Of a DNA stretch of 64,000 nucleotides, positions 32,050-42,564 are shown in pieces. Below the pieces are notes generated by a model, which saw nothing but the letters and a program-made list of their open reading frames with translations, was not told where the DNA came from and did not search any database. Both the position numbers and the translations under genes were made by a program. Position 1 is the first letter of the stretch, and each line of letters starts with the position of its first letter. The DNA comes from Glycomyces arizonensis DSM 44726. Lineage in GTDB: Bacteria; Actinomycetota; Actinomycetes; Mycobacteriales; Micromonosporaceae. The DNA lies in NCBI RefSeq assembly GCF_000482705.1, contig NZ_AXWO01000024.1:1-64000 (forward strand), in the 5' to 3' direction.

Positions 32050-33177
32050 TCAGTCGGCGACCACGCGGCGGCGACGGGCGAGGAGGATCAGCACGGCGGC
32101 ACCGGCCACGATGGCGGCTGCGGCGACGCCGATCGTCACGGTCATCGGGGAACCGGTGACCGGCAGCTGCGCCACAGGTGTGGACGACTCCGGCGGCGCG
32201 GACGACTCGGAGGGCGCGGGGCTCTCCTCATCGCAGCCGGCGGGCATGGCCCAAGAGGCGGTGCCCTCGATCGTGTTCCTCGCGAACTCGACCTGGAACG
32301 AGACGTTCAGCTCGCCGCCTTCGGCCTGGAACTCGACGGTCGCGGTCTCACCGGCCGCCAGCTCCTCCGTCCGGGTCTCGCCGTTGACCGTGAAGGTGTA
32401 AACGAAGGGGTCGGCGTCGGCGGGGACGGCGAGGTCGAAGGTCAGGCCGTCGCAGGTCTGCTCGTAGGAGCCCCAGGCGCAGGGGGCGTCGGCGTCCCAG
32501 GTGACGACATCGACCTCGATGTCGTCGACGGTGACGGTGACGGTGAAGGGCTCGTCCGGGTTCGGGACCAGGAAGTAGTGGCTCAGCGTCGCCCGACCGG
32601 GGAGGGTTTCGCTGACGGCGTCGCCCTGGCTGGGGGTGAGGACGATCTCTCGGTCCACGCCGATATCGGCGTGGACCGCCTCGACCAGCAGTCCGGAGCA
32701 GTCGCTGGTCCCTCTGGCCGCGCCTATCAGCTCGTCCCCGCCTTCTTCTCCACAGGCTCCGCGCAAGACGACCGGCAGGGACTCCACCAGTTCCTCAGTG
32801 TCCGTGCCCTCGTCGTACTCGCCGTCGGCGTCGTTGTCCCAGAAGAGCGTGACGCTCATCGAGGTGTCGGTGGCCGAGCCCGGCAACGTCTGTGTTCCGG
32901 TCAGGACCGTGCCGTCGGCCACTGGCGCGCCGACCTGCAGTGCGCCGGTCAGCGTTCCGGACTGGTCGATCTGCAGGACCTCGCCTGTGGCGTCGGCGCT
33001 GGGGGCGGTGACGGTCAGCGTCCAGCCGATCTCCCGGTTGCCGTCCACGCACGGGGCCGCATCGAGGCGGAGGGTGGACTCCTCGGCCTGGGCGGCCGAC
33101 GCGAACGCGACCGCGGCCGCGAGCCCGAGGGCCGCGCTGCCGGTCAGGCTCAGCACCCGTTTCAGGATGGTTTTCAT
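32050..33177 (-). CDS. LPXTG-anchored surface protein (paralogue 1)
   Basis: A 375-residue cell-wall protein. ATG at 33177 (TTAGGAGAAAAT upstream) opens a Sec signal (MKTILKRVLSLTGSAALGLA, ending near AQA-E, about 29). The body is acidic and Thr/Val-rich with several Cys pairs (for example DAPCAW...TCDGLTFDL), suggesting beta-sandwich domains. A Pro/Ser/Glu linker precedes the sorting signal LPVTG, one membrane helix and the basic tail RRRRVVAD, so a sortase should fix it to peptidoglycan. The second gene (33621-34763) shares layout, the CDGL-F-L block and upstream DNA. Function unknown; adhesion or surface layer is a guess. Confidence 0.85.
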   Translation of the reverse strand: MKTILKRVLSLTGSAALGLAAAVAFASAAQAEESTLRLDAAPCVDGNREIGWTLTVTAPSADATGEVLQIDQSGTLTGALQVGAPVADGTVLTGTQTLPGSATDTSMSVTLFWDNDADGEYDEGTDTEELVESLPVVLRGACGEEGGDELIGAARGTSDCSGLLVEAVHADIGVDREIVLTPSQGDAVSETLPGRATLSHYFLVPNPDEPFTVTVTVDDIEVDVVTWDADAPCAWGSYEQTCDGLTFDLAVPADADPFVYTFTVNGETRTEELAAGETATVEFQAEGGELNVSFQVEFARNTIEGTASWAMPAGCDEESPAPSESSAPPESSTPVAQLPVTGSPMTVTIGVAAAAIVAGAAVLILLARRRRVVAD

Positions 33178-33263
33178 ATTTTCTCCTAAACCATGACAGT
33201 ACTCATGGGATAGTGGGCAAGTGAGTTTTTCGTGGTCGAAGGCAATGGTCCGACCACTCCAGC

Positions 33264-33282
33264 CACCGTACCAACTGGACAC
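33264..33282 (-). promoter_or_regulatory. Conserved 19-bp upstream element, LPXTG gene 1
   Basis: Sequence CACCGTACCAACTGGACAC (+ strand), 87 bp from the start codon. The same element with two changes precedes LPXTG gene 2 at 85 bp (34848-34866), and a form with a few more changes precedes the LPMO gene (55644-55662). On the coding strand it contains TAMGGT, a possible -10 box. Confidence 0.5.
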
Positions 33283-33457
33283 CACCTGGCCGGAAAAAGG
33301 ATTCGCATATCAGCCGAATGGCGATATCGACGCAATAGCATTGCGCCATTAGAGATAAGAGTGAAGCTCTGAGGTTATTGCGATAATGGCAGCTGGACGT
33401 TTTCACGGCCGCGGCCGGTCTACTCGGCGGAGATTCGGAGCGGGAAGGCCCGCCGAC

Positions 33458-33620: not shown

Positions 33621-34763
33621 CTACCAGTCAGCGGCCGCACGGCGGCGGCGCGCGATGAAGAACAGCACGGCTGCGGCGACCACGAGGGCGGCGGCGGCGC
33701 TGATCATGATGGTCATCGAGGAACCGGTGGTCGGCAGCTGGGCCACGGGGGTGGTCGAAGCCTCAGAGGTCGGGGGGACCTCTTCCTCGCACTCACCGGG
33801 CTTGGTCCAGGGGATCTCGCCGCTGTAGATGTGCTTGTCGTCGTCGGCCTCCTCGGCCTTCCACACCACGGTCAACTCGTCGCCGGAGGCGGTGAAGGTG
33901 AAGACCTGGGGCTCGGCGCCCGGGGTGAGGACAGCCTCGACGGCGTCGCCCTCGCTCGGGGTGAGGGTGACAGTGGTCTCAGGCGCGTCGGCGGACACGA
34001 AGAGCTCGAACTTGAGGCCATCGCAGGTGTCGTAGACGGTGCCCCACTCGCAGTTGCCGCCGCCGTCCCACTGGTAGGTCTCATACTCCTCGCCGTTGAC
34101 GAGGACTGTGACGCTCAGGCCTTCTTCGCTCTCGACCGAGAAGTACTGAGTGAATTCCTTGCCGACCTCCGGAGTTCCGGAGACCTCGTCGCCGGTGCTG
34201 GGAACGAAGGTGAACTCGGCCAGGGTCTCGCTCTCGTTGATAGCGGTCACGGCCATGCCGGCGCAGTCGCTCCACGAACCAACGGCGACCGAGGGCTCGG
34301 GCACCTCGGGGCTCGGGCTCTCAGACGGCTCTACGGTCGTCGGCACTTCCGTGGGCTCACAGCCGCCTTGGGGCTGCGGGACGCTCCAGTCGTTGGTCTG
34401 GGTGTCGCCACCGTTCCAAGTCGGCCAGGATGCCGTGATCGAAAGCGTGGCCTGCTGGTCCTCGGAAGTGAGGGTCTGCACGCCTTCGAGCGTCCCGGAC
34501 CCGGGGGTGGGCAGGGAGGCGCCATCGACGATGTCGCCGGTCAGGGTGCCGTTGTTCTCGACCGAGTCGATGATGCCCTCGGCGTCGCCGGTCCAGTTGG
34601 TGGCGTGCCAGGCGACCGTCCAGCCGCCGTCATCGGCGCAGCTGACATCCCAATCGATCTCGACGTGACAGGCCTGAGCGGCCGAGGCGAACACCGTCGC
34701 ACCGACGAGGCCGAGGCCGATGCCTGCGGCCAAGGTCCTTACCCGCTTGAGGGTACGGTTCAT
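33621..34763 (-). CDS. LPXTG-anchored surface protein (paralogue 2)
   Basis: A 380-residue cell-wall protein. ATG at 34763 follows TTAGGAGAAAC, nearly the same ribosome site as paralogue 1. Signal peptide about 1-33 (MNRTLKRVRTLAAGIGLGLV, ending near AQA-C). The exported part starts CHVEIDWDVSCADDGGWTV, with Trp-rich beta-type sequence, then a Pro/Glu/Ser linker and a second domain with DCAGMAV and CDGLKFELFV, matching paralogue 1. The end is LPTTG, one helix and RRRRAAADW. No sortase gene is in the window. Probable ancient duplication; function unknown. Confidence 0.85.
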   Translation of the reverse strand: MNRTLKRVRTLAAGIGLGLVGATVFASAAQACHVEIDWDVSCADDGGWTVAWHATNWTGDAEGIIDSVENNGTLTGDIVDGASLPTPGSGTLEGVQTLTSEDQQATLSITASWPTWNGGDTQTNDWSVPQPQGGCEPTEVPTTVEPSESPSPEVPEPSVAVGSWSDCAGMAVTAINESETLAEFTFVPSTGDEVSGTPEVGKEFTQYFSVESEEGLSVTVLVNGEEYETYQWDGGGNCEWGTVYDTCDGLKFELFVSADAPETTVTLTPSEGDAVEAVLTPGAEPQVFTFTASGDELTVVWKAEEADDDKHIYSGEIPWTKPGECEEEVPPTSEASTTPVAQLPTTGSSMTIMISAAAALVVAAAVLFFIARRRRAAADW

Positions 34764-34847
34764 GTTTCTCCTAAGTGATGGCATTTCTCAATGGGGGTAG
34801 TTGCAGGGGATTCGCACGGTCGGGGGCAGAAAACCGACCGGCTTAGG

Positions 34848-36697: not shown

Positions 36698-37816
36698 CTA
36701 GAAGTCCTGCGGTTCGACGGCGTTGTCGATGTCCTCCATGGTGAGGTACTCGCTGCCGATCAGCTCCTCTTCCCAGTTGTTCTTGTCGATGCTCACCGGC
36801 TCCAGCAGGTACGAGGGCACGAATTTGAAGCCGTTGTTGTACGTGCCGAGGTCGTTGACCTCGGGGTCGTCGCCGTTCACGATGCTCTTGACCATGCCAG
36901 AGGCGACCGCCGCGAGGTCGCGGGTGTCCTTGAAGACGGTCTGGGTCTGGCCCAGGTCGTCGCGGATGAACTTGATCGAGAGGGCTTCGGCGTCCTGGCC
37001 GGTGATGACCGGGAACTCATCGGTGCCGGGGACGAGTCCGAAGTCTTCGAGCGCGCGAATGACGCCCCGGCTGATGCCGTCGTAGGGGGAGAGCACCGCG
37101 TCGAGGTGGCGGTCCTCGTAGAACTCATCGAGCAGCCCGGCCATGCGCTCCATGGCGAGGGGCCCGCTCCAGCGCTCGGTGGCGGTCTGCTCCTGCTCGG
37201 TCTGCTCGGAGGGGATCCGGATGATTCCGGAGTAGGTGTAGCGCTCGAGCGTGTCGAGGCCCCCCTGGAAGAAGTACTGGGAATTGCTGTCGTCGGACGA
37301 GCCGGAGAAGATCTCGACGTTGAACGGGCCTTCGGCGCCGTCCTCGCTGATGCCGAGCCGGTCGAGGATGTGCTTGGCCTGGAGGACGCCGACCTGGTAG
37401 TTGTCGAACGAGGCGTAGTAGTCGACGTCGGGGGTGTCGAGGATGAGGCGGTCGTAGGAGATGATCATCACCCCCTTGTCCTTCGCGTGGGCGAGGACCT
37501 CGCCGAGGGAGCGGTTGTCGATCGCGCCGATGATGAGGAACTCGACGCCCTGGTCGACCATCCCCTGGATCTGGGAGATCTGCTTTTCGGGGTCGTCGTC
37601 CCCGTATTCGAGGATGGTCTCGTAGCCGGGCTCGTGAAGCTGGTCCTCCAAAAACCCGCCTTCGATGACCCAGCGGTCGGAGGTCTTGGTGGGCATGGCG
37701 ATGCCGGTGAAGCCGGTGAGGGAGGAGCCGGACTCCTCGCCCCCCGAGCACCCTGCCAATGTGACGGCTGCCATGCCTGCCGATCCGTGCAGTAGGCGGC
37801 GGCGACTGAGATGCAT
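36698..37816 (-). CDS. Sugar-binding lipoprotein of an ABC importer (ChvE/XylF-like)
   Basis: A 372-residue periplasmic-binding-type lipoprotein. The lipobox TLAGC gives an acylated C23 after a signal with RRR. The fold is Peripla_BP type I: IIGAIDNRSLGEVLAHAKDKGVMIISYDRLI (about 93-123), NVEIFSGSSDDSNSQYFFQG and ITGQDAEALSIKFIRDDLGQTQTVFKDTR (about 267-295) match the multiple-sugar/xylose-binding group that serves CUT2 importers. No permease or ATPase gene is adjacent, so it must work with a system encoded elsewhere or act in sensing. AAGGAG ribosome site; the upstream region is AT-rich. Confidence 0.9.
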   Translation of the reverse strand: MHLSRRRLLHGSAGMAAVTLAGCSGGEESGSSLTGFTGIAMPTKTSDRWVIEGGFLEDQLHEPGYETILEYGDDDPEKQISQIQGMVDQGVEFLIIGAIDNRSLGEVLAHAKDKGVMIISYDRLILDTPDVDYYASFDNYQVGVLQAKHILDRLGISEDGAEGPFNVEIFSGSSDDSNSQYFFQGGLDTLERYTYSGIIRIPSEQTEQEQTATERWSGPLAMERMAGLLDEFYEDRHLDAVLSPYDGISRGVIRALEDFGLVPGTDEFPVITGQDAEALSIKFIRDDLGQTQTVFKDTRDLAAVASGMVKSIVNGDDPEVNDLGTYNNGFKFVPSYLLEPVSIDKNNWEEELIGSEYLTMEDIDNAVEPQDF

Positions 37817-39055: not shown

Positions 39056-39158
39056 GACTGTCGCATCGCTCGCGAGCTTGGTGCATACTGAGGTTCACCC
39101 AACGTATTGCCGACCCCCGACCTGACTCACCCGGCGACCACCCTTCACGGGAGCACCA

Positions 39159-41189
39159 GTGTCCGACGGCGCACACCGCGACTCCGCGCGAACCGACCGA
39201 CCGCCCCGACCGTCCGAGCGGCGCCGCCGCCTCGACCCGACGGCCACCGCCGTGTGGGCCGGAGCGGCCAGCGCCGCCATCAGCGTCGCCTTCAACGTCC
39301 TGAGCATCCAGGCCGAAGGGCTCACCGGCACCGAGCTCGAACGCATCAAGAACCTCGCGATCATCCTGGCGATCCCCGCGTTCGGCGTGACGACGGCGAT
39401 CCTGTGGGCGCGGCTGTCGCGCTCGCCCACCCGGATCACCGCACTGGTCGACGCCCCGCCGACGCACCGGCCCCGCCCCACGACGCTCCTGTTCATCACG
39501 GCGCTCGCGCTCAACCTGCTCGGCGCGTGCTCGGGCATGGTGGCGCTGTTCCAGCCCCAGCTGCTCGACGTGTTCGACCCGCCGTGCGAGGACCCGATCG
39601 AGCTGACCGTCGCCGTCCCGCAGGAGGGCGCCGCGGGCTTCACCGACGTCGTCGCGGAGTTCGCGGACGACCAGCTCGACGAGCACGGCTGCCGCACGGT
39701 CAGCGTCACCGCCCTCCCCCTCTCCTGGCAGGAGGTCGAAGACGCCTTCGCGGACGACTGGCAGGGGAGGATGCGGCTCTCGCTCGGGATCCGGCCGGAC
39801 GTGTGGATCGCCGAATCGGCCGCGCAGATCGATTACGCCGGCAGCCTCATGGACGACGACGCGCCGCTGGCGGGCGAACCGGTGCCGATCGGCACCACCC
39901 CGCTGGTGCTGGCGGTCCCCCAGGACATCGAGTCGCTGCACACGGCGGCCGAGACGGCGTTCGCATCGCTCATGCAGCCCGACGACAACGCCGTGGTGCG
40001 CGCCGACCCCGAGCAGTCGCTCACCGCGCTCTACCACCTCTCGTGGCTCTACGAGCTCAACGCGAACGACGCCGACATCGAGGAGGCGATCACGAGCGGG
40101 CTCGAATCGAACGGCATCGGCAAGGTCGGCGACACCGCGCTGCTGTGCCAGCTGTACCACCGCGACGCGGCGACGACGGCCGTGCTCACCACCGAGAGGG
40201 CCGTGGCCGTCTACAACGAGGAGGAGATGGGCTCGGACTGCTCGCAGACCGACCGCCCCGACACGCAGCTCGACGCCCTGTACCCCATCGAGGACGTGCA
40301 CCTGGACTACAGCGCCCTGCACCTCGGCTGGCCCGATCCCGAAGGGGCGGATCCGGCCGTCGAGGCCGACCGCGACCGCGCCGCCGAGGACTTCATCGAC
40401 TGGCTCACCGCGCCGGACGGGCAGGCGTCGCTGGCGGACACGGGCATCCGCACCGATGCCGCCGAGACGCTGCTGGCCCGCGCTGGCGGCGTCAACACTG
40501 ACGCGGCGCAGGAGGCCCACGTCCTCGACTCCGGTGCGCTGCCGGGTCTCGAAGCGCGCTTCAGCGAGGCCCGGATGCCCGTCCAGGTCCTGCTGGCGGT
40601 CGACAACTCCGCGGCGATGAGCCAGGCCGTCGGCACCGGGCAGGCCGAGGACGGCGAAGACCGGACCCTCGCCGACGTCGCCTTGGCGGGAGCCCAGGCG
40701 GCACTGGACGAGTTCGAGGACGACGACGAGTTCGGGGTGTGGAGCTTCCCCACCGGCGAGGGCGATCCGGAGCCGGACCGCCTGCTGGAGATCGGGCCCG
40801 CCGACGAGGTCCATCGGACGCAGGCGGTGACGACGCTCGCCGCGCTGACACCGGAGGGCGACACCCCGCTGTACCACACGATCGCCGAAGGCGTGAGCGT
40901 CCTGGAGGGAGCCGACGACGAGCGGACCCAGCCGGTCATGGTGGTCATCACCGGCGGCGAGGACGACGACCCGGCCCACGACACCGGCGTCGAGGCGCTC
41001 ACCGCCCGGCTCAACGAGGCCGGCGTGCGCCTGTACGTCGTCACCGTCGCGGGCGCCACCTGCGAGACCACCGGTCTCGACGAGGTGGCGGAGGCGTCGC
41101 TCGGCCGGTGCGAGAGCGTCCAGGCCGGCTCGCTGGAGGCGACGTTCGCCGGAGTGTTCGACGAGATCTGGGGCGGCGACGATGCGTAG
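39159..41189 (+). CDS. Membrane-anchored solute-binding plus VWA-domain protein
   Basis: A 676-residue protein. GTG at 39159 follows GGGAG. Two helices (about 30-50 and about 62-84) and a third (about 107-128) anchor it; the remainder lies outside. Residues about 145-430 resemble a bacterial extracellular solute-binding domain (ELTVAVPQEGAAGFTDVVAEF, then a GNxSDAFT-like middle). A VWA domain follows (about 465-670) with the MIDAS-like site VDNSAAMS, which departs from the usual DxSxS in having Ala at the third position, and VVITGGEDDDPAHDTG. The pair with the next gene overlaps by 8 bp. No permease or ATPase is near. Role unknown; a surface sensor or adhesion complex is inferred. Confidence 0.8.
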   Translation: MSDGAHRDSARTDRPPRPSERRRRLDPTATAVWAGAASAAISVAFNVLSIQAEGLTGTELERIKNLAIILAIPAFGVTTAILWARLSRSPTRITALVDAPPTHRPRPTTLLFITALALNLLGACSGMVALFQPQLLDVFDPPCEDPIELTVAVPQEGAAGFTDVVAEFADDQLDEHGCRTVSVTALPLSWQEVEDAFADDWQGRMRLSLGIRPDVWIAESAAQIDYAGSLMDDDAPLAGEPVPIGTTPLVLAVPQDIESLHTAAETAFASLMQPDDNAVVRADPEQSLTALYHLSWLYELNANDADIEEAITSGLESNGIGKVGDTALLCQLYHRDAATTAVLTTERAVAVYNEEEMGSDCSQTDRPDTQLDALYPIEDVHLDYSALHLGWPDPEGADPAVEADRDRAAEDFIDWLTAPDGQASLADTGIRTDAAETLLARAGGVNTDAAQEAHVLDSGALPGLEARFSEARMPVQVLLAVDNSAAMSQAVGTGQAEDGEDRTLADVALAGAQAALDEFEDDDEFGVWSFPTGEGDPEPDRLLEIGPADEVHRTQAVTTLAALTPEGDTPLYHTIAEGVSVLEGADDERTQPVMVVITGGEDDDPAHDTGVEALTARLNEAGVRLYVVTVAGATCETTGLDEVAEASLGRCESVQAGSLEATFAGVFDEIWGGDDA

Positions 41190-42564
41190 GCGCATCGGGA
41201 TCGGCCCCGCCCGCGCGGGGTACAGGCGGCGGGAGCTCCTCGGCGGCCTGCTCTCGGCGGCGGGCGCGGGCGCCGCCGCCGCGCTCGGCGTCCAGGGGTA
41301 TGTGCACCGCGAACGCGAGTTGGAGGACCTTCCCGAGGGCTACCGGCTGGGCATCCTCGCGGGCGTGGACGAGAGCTCCGGCGCGCAGCGCGAGATGCTG
41401 GTGCGCCAGTGGAACCGGCTGCACGAGCACCACCAGGCCGAGATCCGCGACCTGCCGCCCAACGCCGACCTCCAGTACAACGGCATGCACGCCGCGCTCC
41501 AGGCCCGCGACACCGACGTCGACCTGGTCGCCGTCGACATCGCCTGGATCGCGGAGTTCGCCGAGCAGGGCTACCTCAGGCGGCTCGAGCACCTGGCCGA
41601 CGACGGCTTCCTCCGCGCGCCGTTCCAGGCGGGGGTCATCGGGGGCGACGTGTACGCGCTGCCGTTCAACTCCGATGTGGGGCTGCTCTACTACCGCAGG
41701 GACCTCCTGGACGAGGACGACGAGCCGTCGCGGTGGGGCTGGGAGGAGTTCGCCGAGCGGGCCGAGGCGCTCACGGACGCCCTCGTGGGTTCGAGCGCCC
41801 ACCCCGGCCTGGAGGGCGGCATCGCCATGCAGCTCGCCCCGTACGAGGGCTTCACCGTCAACGTGTGGGAGGTGCTGCTGTCCAACGGCGCCGAGCCGGT
41901 GCGCGAGGACCTCATCCAGATCGCCGACGACCCGCTCACCGTCCCCGCGCTGAACCGGCTCCAGGGCATGGTCAACCGGGGCACGGTCCTGCGCGATTCG
42001 CTCGCGTTCGACGAAGCGGGGTCGCTGACGGCCTTCCTGGAGGGCCGGACGGTCTTCCTGCGCCACTGGCCGCGCGCCTACCACCAGCTGCTGGCGAGCA
42101 CCGCCGACCTGGACGTCGGCGTCGCGCCCATGCCGGGCAGGGGGGTGCTCGGCGGGCAGAGCCTGGCGGTGGCCGCTTCCTCGCGGTTCCCCGTCGTGTC
42201 CCAGGCCTTGGCGGAGTTCCTCACCGGCGACCGCAGCCAGCAGCTGCTGTTCGAGCGCGGCGGCTTCGCCGCCACGCGCCCCGAACCGTACGAGGACGCC
42301 GATCTGCGCAACGACGCCTACGGGCCTCCGGCGAAGGCGGGCGGCGGATCCGGCGGTGCGGCGCCCGCGGTCGGGTTCCCCATCGAGGACGTCGCGGTGC
42401 TCGAGGGCGGCCTGCGGGACGCCGGGCTCCGGCCCGCCGTCGACCACTACAAGCGCTTCAGCGAGGTCTTCAGCGACTACCTCCACGGCATCCTGTCCAA
42501 CGGCGAGGAGGTCGACGCCGAGCGGCTCCAGACGGATCTGGAGCAGGCCGTCGAGGGGAAGTGA
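41182..42564 (+). CDS. Extracellular solute-binding protein, family 1-like, Tat-type signal
   Basis: A 460-residue exported binding protein. The N-terminus GYRRRELLGGLLSAAGAG fits a Tat signal. The rest is a type-II binding fold of the SBP_bac_1 class: YRLGILAGVDESSGAQREMLVRQWN (about 54-78), VDLVAVDIAWIAEFAEQGYL, GGDVYALPFNSDVGLLYYRRDLL and the long hinge segment, with FLRHWPRAYHQLL near 295. Its start lies inside the end of the VWA gene (8-bp overlap), so both are translated together and probably form a complex. The lack of a lipobox and of transporter subunits is unusual for a binding protein. Confidence 0.83.
   Translation: MRRRIGIGPARAGYRRRELLGGLLSAAGAGAAAALGVQGYVHRERELEDLPEGYRLGILAGVDESSGAQREMLVRQWNRLHEHHQAEIRDLPPNADLQYNGMHAALQARDTDVDLVAVDIAWIAEFAEQGYLRRLEHLADDGFLRAPFQAGVIGGDVYALPFNSDVGLLYYRRDLLDEDDEPSRWGWEEFAERAEALTDALVGSSAHPGLEGGIAMQLAPYEGFTVNVWEVLLSNGAEPVREDLIQIADDPLTVPALNRLQGMVNRGTVLRDSLAFDEAGSLTAFLEGRTVFLRHWPRAYHQLLASTADLDVGVAPMPGRGVLGGQSLAVAASSRFPVVSQALAEFLTGDRSQQLLFERGGFAATRPEPYEDADLRNDAYGPPAKAGGGSGGAAPAVGFPIEDVAVLEGGLRDAGLRPAVDHYKRFSEVFSDYLHGILSNGEEVDAERLQTDLEQAVEGK

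Follow-up and report, generated by a model that had tools for sequence, protein, structure and literature searches.

A putative two-protein surface sensor with an exchangeable cytosolic output in Glycomyces and other Actinobacteria

A stretch of 64,000 nucleotides from Glycomyces arizonensis DSM 44726 (contig NZ_AXWO01000024.1; "the window" below means this whole stretch) carries two overlapping genes, here called A and B, whose products are probably the two halves of a transmembrane sensor with an exchangeable cytosolic output; we put the probability of this reading at roughly 60%. Computation established the domain anatomy of both proteins, their near-obligate pairing and co-divergence, the absence of transport genes beside them, the exchange of cytosolic peptidases on A among relatives and the conservation of a sugar pocket in B. 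Both open reading frames, and the 8-bp overlap that an earlier note on this DNA had described, were confirmed (Table 1). Coding scores from our own codon-usage gene caller are high for A and B and both genes are deeply conserved, so we regard them as real genes, beyond chance.

Conservation of the pair and anatomy of its proteins

At the thresholds used, 81 of 150 genomes of the family gave a match to A and 60 a match to B. We examined 34 regions around all A matches down to E=2.1e-24 (window excluded), five around weaker B matches and one further stretch of the window's own contig. B lies immediately downstream of A, on the same strand, in 34/34 of the regions picked by A (E<=2.1e-24); in the five picked by weaker B, A is present once (L076) and absent four times. 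Loci from species genomes (GTDB, one genome per species) were gathered with a profile of B, a first scan with A alone having matched nothing. In the best 80 of 493 named B loci, all from Actinobacteria, A sits directly upstream on the same strand in 78, which answers the suspicion that the two genes might seldom occur together; the two exceptions are a locus at a contig edge (L098) and a lone B with no A found by tblastn (L139). The pair occurs in Glycomyces, Myceligenerans, Promicromonospora, Dactylosporangium, Lentzea, Pseudonocardia, Kibdelosporangium, Actinoplanes, Micromonospora, Streptomyces and other genera. A phylum-wide draw of 396 genomes yielded B at the score level of the pair, with A alongside, in five, the genome of the window included. 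Relatives of B were found in neither viral contigs nor plasmids, and carriage of the pair by phages or plasmids was rejected on that ground.

Removal of 20 duplicates (identical in the last 150 residues of B) from 114 pairs left 94 distinct ones, in which the genes overlap (46), lie within 31 nt of each other (31) or are further apart (17); the gene calls come from the codon-usage caller, and starts and intergenic gaps are approximate. Trees, the mirror-tree comparison and residue counts use 92 rows, two pairs with truncated A (L111 and L152) having been left out. Tree distances of A and B are correlated at r=0.93 over these 92 pairs, where none of 2000 permutations exceeded 0.08; within the 11 Glycomyces rows r is 0.95.

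Pfam recognises SBP_bac_11 in A (E=2.3e-10) and, both sub-threshold, VWA (0.0096) and VWA_2 (0.016). An AlphaFold2 model of A (predicted local distance difference test, pLDDT, 85.1; predicted template-modelling score, pTM, 0.77), built like that of B on an alignment of the window protein with 50 named relatives, contains the membrane helices, three in number, and the solute-binding and VWA folds that had been read from the sequence. The solute-binding domain has a type-II fold (best Z 24.2 to 5um2, a sulfate-binding protein) and the VWA domain a clear fold of its kind (Z 23.9 to 4fx5, a Catenulispora VWA protein; both by VIA-align), its closest matches including inter-alpha-inhibitor and pilin VWA domains. 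The structural matches of A also include 6lkg, titled a two-component signal protein, which we take to be HptA. Comparison with solved structures returned the two domains separately and no single chain holding both, an absence that is not proof. Because the N-terminus and the loop at 88-106 are net-positive, the sequence suggests a topology in which the three helices leave the N-terminus inside and the C-terminus outside. Cysteines 143, 178, 361, 635 and 651 are kept in 91-92 of the 92 paired relatives (Cys330 in 76/92), and this near-invariance argues for an outer location of A's domains, where the conserved cysteines would form disulphides.

The altered DNSAAM motif of the metal-ion-dependent adhesion site (MIDAS), already flagged in the earlier note, was confirmed, and a point beyond that note emerged: the second MIDAS Asp is also replaced, by Gly, leaving the window copy with D482, S484, A486, T569 and G599 and no complete site. 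This doubly altered MIDAS is nearly specific to the window copy and is not a property of the family. D482 and S484 are present in 92/92 paired A, and only one other row (L100) departs at the second Asp. The Thr position has become Asp in 19 rows, all of them caspase rows of the Streptomyces group; Val in eight and Ile in one, which together are 9/9 rows of a sister Glycomyces clade; and Ala or Arg in further rows. All five positions are intact in 56/92 paired A (accepting either Ser or Thr at positions three and four). Since the site is incomplete in many rows, the family can do without metal-dependent binding.

B is recognised by Pfam as SBP_bac_1 (E=8.5e-21) and SBP_bac_8, likewise above cut-off. 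Its model (pLDDT 88.4, pTM 0.86) resembles MalE3, the Thermococcus trehalose/maltose-binding protein, an alpha-glycoside-binding protein and LpqY; Foldseek gives E 2.8e-28 to 6dtq and 3.7e-28 to 1eu8, and both fold and pocket are of the alpha-glycoside-binding type. In a mapping made by eye from HMMER alignments, B residues D119, D165, E278, W296, G325 and R417 correspond to LpqY D80, N134, E241, W259, G334 and R404, respectively. In mycobacterial LpqY, according to the part of PMC7949145 covered here, replacing Glu241, Trp259 or Arg404 by alanine abolishes the binding of trehalose, the Asn134Ala change reduces it ~100-fold, and Asp80 and Gly334 also touch the sugar. D119, E278 and W296 of B are invariant (92/92), R417 and G325 are present in 91/92 with one gap, D165 is Asp in 85 rows and Asn in 7, and the position equivalent to LpqY Gln59 is Gln in 71/92. 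Because the trehalose-contact residues of LpqY are kept throughout the family, B very likely still works as a sugar binder, and its subfamily points to an alpha-glucoside such as trehalose or maltose as the ligand.

As first proposed, B is a stand-alone solute-binding protein with a signal of the twin-arginine translocation (Tat) type, judged by motif (YRRRELL, with a hydrophobic helix at 17-44 in the model), and no lipobox, for it has no cysteine at all. The helix shows no obvious AxA cleavage site, so B may remain in place as a membrane anchor. Twin-arginine motifs recur in most other Glycomyces rows and in the Promicromonosporaceae rows shown (TRRGF in Promicromonospora relatives), and a simple motif count finds the pattern in 29/92 B; several Streptomyces B carry a lipobox-like cysteine instead, and others have only a hydrophobic helix. 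All these N-termini fit a protein that is retained on the external side of the membrane.

Table 1. Coordinates of the gene pair and its features in the window
Feature	Position	Strand	Remarks
Gene A	39159..41189	+	GTG start; likely ribosome site GGGAG 39149-39153; 676 aa
Gene B	41182..42564	+	Exported stand-alone solute-binding protein, trehalose/maltose (LpqY/TMBP) type; 460 aa
A/B overlap (end of A, start of B)	41182..41189	+	Exactly 8 bp
A, three predicted membrane helices (31-54, 58-87, 107-139)	39249..39575	+	Residues 31-139; model
A, solute-binding domain	39585..40583	+	Residues 143-475; fold of sulfate/hexose-phosphate/ferric-binding proteins; Pfam and structure comparison
A, VWA domain with degenerate MIDAS	40584..41177	+	Residues 476-673; model and structure comparison
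A, MIDAS motif 1, DNSAAM (482-487)	40602..40619	+	Ala486; Ser/Thr there in 90/92 paired relatives
A, MIDAS Thr569 (GDTPLY)	40863..40865	+	Retained in window copy; alignment
A, second MIDAS Asp position, Gly599 (TGG, 598-600)	40953..40955	+	Asp in 90/92
B, twin-arginine motif RRRELL and hydrophobic helix	41224..41313	+	Residues 15-44; export signal or anchor; Tat by motif only
B, solute-binding domain	41344..42561	+	Residues 55-460; pocket D119, D165, E278, W296, G325, R417

The closest relatives of the A/B locus are from Glycomyces, consistent with a Glycomyces-like actinobacterium as the source of the pair. Upstream of the pair lies a gene for a metallo-beta-lactamase-fold protein and downstream, on the other strand, one for an aldo/keto reductase (Pfam). 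Our neighbour scan agrees with the earlier report of no adjoining permease, ATPase, chelatase or MoxR gene, and the seven window neighbours scanned include no AAA+ ATPase, such as would mark a MoxR-VWA ternary or chelatase system. Further away, at 36698-37816 (-), is a gene for a ChvE-like multiple-sugar-binding protein (NF040907, 420.7 bits against a cut-off of 460) with a twin-arginine/lipobox-like start and without a permease or ATPase alongside; it is also found two genes upstream of the pair in two further Glycomyces regions (L041 and L042). Two secreted proteins encoded in tandem at 32050-33285 and 33621-34784 (-) end in LPxTG-like sorting signals (LPVTG, LPTTG) and are likely sortase-anchored paralogues.

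Cytosolic enzymes of related A proteins and their upstream partners

A carries an N-terminal caspase-like region in 36/94 pairs (by motif, one with a late-called start) and a trypsin-like one in 2/94. We classed 39 A proteins as peptidase-bearing, a set that includes L154 ("caspase?", its caspase part possibly lost by a late start call), which was left out of the state changes counted below. Pfam detects Peptidase_C14 in 32 of the 39 and Trypsin_2 in two, and no peptidase in the 53 peptidase-less A. The upstream gene switches with the enzyme, EACC1 accompanying the caspase and Trypco1 the trypsin: of the genes upstream of the 39 loci, 26 match EACC1 and two Trypco1 (E<=0.01), as in a trypsin form preceded by Trypco1 at 3.8e-27 (L153) and a caspase form preceded by EACC1 at 9.2e-30 (L122). 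Several of the upstream genes score just below the curated cut-off of EACC1. Clustering of neighbours identified this small gene directly upstream, found only beside long A, as the sole gene that accompanies A across lineages. For the enzyme-free form no third gene is conserved across lineages and there is only genus-level synteny. A separate scan of the upstream genes of enzyme-free loci took in those with a same-strand upstream gene (18 of the 53 have none); with 25 of its 43 families listed, a single EACC1 match may occur there.

A tree of A's outer part, made by a quick method and with long branches at L076, L160 and L071, places the caspase forms in separate clades and groups the trypsin forms with one caspase clade, giving four state changes; solo SBP-VWA proteins, which combine a solute-binding protein (SBP) domain with a VWA domain, form the outgroup. 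The cytosolic enzyme thus varies on one outer module, and the two-protein outer module is therefore the constant part. PADLOC left A and B of the window unmatched; its caspase model matches the long A of L054. In the caspase form of Streptomyces (L136-L159) we also observed a conserved protein at position -2 in 12 loci, whose L144 member has no Pfam match, and another conserved gene at -3 in eight loci, whose L144 member encodes a SpoIIE-type phosphatase.

A model for the pair and its alternatives

We infer sensing, complex formation, the identity of the ligand, the direction of signalling and any link to death or defence in the following scenario. After export B would stay at the external face of the membrane, bind a small sugar, most likely an alpha-glucoside (trehalose, maltose), and dock on the outer solute-binding and VWA part of A. 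Docking that depends on the ligand would alter A, whose membrane helices would relay the change into the cytosol. Some two fifths of the relatives have at the cytosolic end of A a caspase-like, or in rare cases trypsin-like, protease accompanied by a small partner of its own, EACC1 or Trypco1; the presence of a protease there suggests that these forms respond by regulated proteolysis, which is probably protective or suicidal. The lineage of the window has either lost the protease or never acquired it, and the output would pass through the helices or another partner. In its fullest and most tentative version, which we consider possible but would not yet bet on, A and B form a modular surface receptor in which sugar-loaded B docks on A and switches whatever sits at the cytosolic end: in relatives a protease with its matched adaptor, resembling a death receptor that takes an extracellular sugar as its cue, and in Glycomyces an enzyme-free receptor.

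Several observations weigh against the view of the pair as a sensor. No cytosolic output can be recognised in the window A, whose MIDAS is also degenerate. The pairing statistics rest on the best matches, and weaker B relatives lack A in 25/29 non-window loci. The EACC1 matches are often weak, 11/39 upstream genes reach E<=0.01 with neither EACC1 nor Trypco1, and a profile-profile comparison of upstream genes to EACC1 gave only 16% and 44% probability. A caspase/EACC1-like system elsewhere in the genome of the window, described below, does not track the pair, since the sister species G148 has the pair and no match to that system.

VWA domains serve adhesion in many surface proteins, and A and B could form a surface scaffold or adhesin in which the VWA domain binds the cell wall or a partner protein and the SBP folds are structural or capture glycans, with no signalling. 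The kinship of A's VWA domain to those of inter-alpha-inhibitor and pilins, and the lack of an enzyme in the window form, would fit such a role; we nevertheless think it unlikely, as the sugar pocket of B is strictly kept and A has repeatedly been fused on its cytosolic side to a caspase or trypsin that comes with the corresponding partner gene, which argues for a signal across the membrane.

Somewhat less probable still is that A and B are orphan importer parts that pass sugar to an ATP-binding cassette (ABC) permease and ATPase whose genes lie at another place in the genome. B is closest to the trehalose/maltose-binding proteins of ABC importers and retains the whole pocket, and the nearest unpaired B paralogues examined do adjoin permeases. 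By motif-based detection, however, 0/94 pairs have a same-strand permease or ABC-ATPase-like gene at -2, -1, +2 or +3, whereas 4/4 ABC-type B paralogues without A, used as a control, carry permeases at +1 and +2, so that homologues of the pair do not regularly adjoin transport genes, as the earlier note had feared they might. Within five genes of the 94 pairs there are two permease-like genes, both at L094, and eight ATPase-like ones, in no pattern. For an importer, moreover, A's membrane helices, its VWA domain and the cytosolic proteases of its relatives would be superfluous. With no ABC neighbours in homologues and the two genes nearly always together, the earlier suggestion of sensing or capture at the surface instead of import is the better reading and is thus partly supported.

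We give the least credence to the idea that the Glycomyces pair is a decaying relic of an EACC1-caspase conflict system that has lost its effector: the MIDAS has decayed in the window copy (A486, G599), its Thr is lost in the sister Glycomyces clade and the locus has neither peptidase nor EACC1, but A and B are intact with their conserved cysteines and pocket residues, and the 53 peptidase-less pairs are spread over a wide range of genera (Lentzea, Promicromonospora and Dactylosporangium among them) while the tree requires few state changes, which indicates a stable enzyme-free form. Seven solo SBP-VWA outgroup rows are also without a peptidase, and the enzyme-free form may therefore be ancestral.

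Relation to known systems

The nearest described relatives of the pair are the predicted actinobacterial EACC1 conflict systems. In the text of PMC7159879 that we could draw on, Kaur et al. (2020) mention, for their two-gene EACC1 system ("System 4"), a caspase combined with a transmembrane segment and a periplasmic-binding-protein domain outside the cell, list a MoxR-independent vWA among the C-terminal variants and propose proteolysis as the output. The enzyme-bearing relatives of A (caspase, transmembrane segment, extracellular binding-protein domain and VWA) lie directly downstream of an EACC1 gene. The window locus differs in both defining features, having the metallo-beta-lactamase-fold gene in the place of EACC1 and an A whose N-terminus is three transmembrane helices without a caspase or other peptidase, and we therefore do not count it as a member. 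The earlier remark that no described system of this exact composition was known needs qualifying accordingly: PMC7159879 mentions a caspase-bearing sister form of A, and the composition is thus not entirely without precedent in print. The portion of that paper covered contains neither B nor the versions with trypsin/Trypco1 or without an enzyme, and the second binding protein, the enzyme exchange and the enzyme-free form are likewise absent from the corresponding portions of PMC8195603 and PMC10907252. Searches of an open-access library returned no report combining substrate binding with VWA and no further description of the pair, and EACC1 as a bacterial domain appeared only in PMC7159879 and PMC8195603. 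Judging from the literature covered, what seems new is that a second binding protein is obligate, that caspase/EACC1 and trypsin/Trypco1 replace each other on one outer module and that an enzyme-free two-gene form exists.

At E<=1e-3 neither EACC1 nor Trypco1 was found in the genome of the window, while the EACC1 search was positive in 3/3 control relatives; an EACC1-like gene later found at E=0.0021 means that this negative is not proof of absence. That gene, of 125 aa and below the cut-off, precedes with a 4-bp overlap a gene on contig C11 of the same genome, G000 (~90312-95053, -; L162:2313-7054), whose product of 1455 aa begins with a caspase domain and also contains repeats of the FtsK/SpoIIIE ATPase. 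Close copies of this system (73-100% identity) occur in 3/9 pair-bearing Glycomyces searched and in 0/7 others, and as an obligate effector of the pair it was rejected for its patchy distribution and its absence from G148.

In the portions of the literature covered, the trigger of the predicted bacterial EACC1-caspase systems is not established. If our model is correct, a conserved two-protein outer module that retains a readable sugar pocket while the protease inside is exchanged would give these systems a trigger that is defined and can be tested, and would illustrate how proteins that bind solutes moved from transport to sensing. The enzyme-free form of Glycomyces, Lentzea and Promicromonospora would allow the receptor part to be studied without the protease.

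Other known proteins resemble single parts of the pair. LpqY, TMBP and MalE3 of ABC importers share fold and pocket residues with B, which, unlike them, has no adjoining permease or ATPase, is tied to A and may be exported by Tat. Solo SBP-VWA proteins of Actinobacteria (553-615 aa, one transmembrane helix) have the same domain order as A, but B is absent from 11/11 of their neighbourhoods (L163-L173) and the seven that were aligned lack Cys361 and Cys635. A functional parallel to the proposed relay, established by experiment, is HptA-HptS of S. aureus, in which the secreted binding protein HptA signals by way of the membrane kinase HptS (PMC8774646, in the part covered). There, as we propose for B and A, a solute-binding protein relays a ligand signal to a membrane protein; HptA-HptS has a histidine kinase whereas the pair has none, and A itself combines a solute-binding with a VWA domain.

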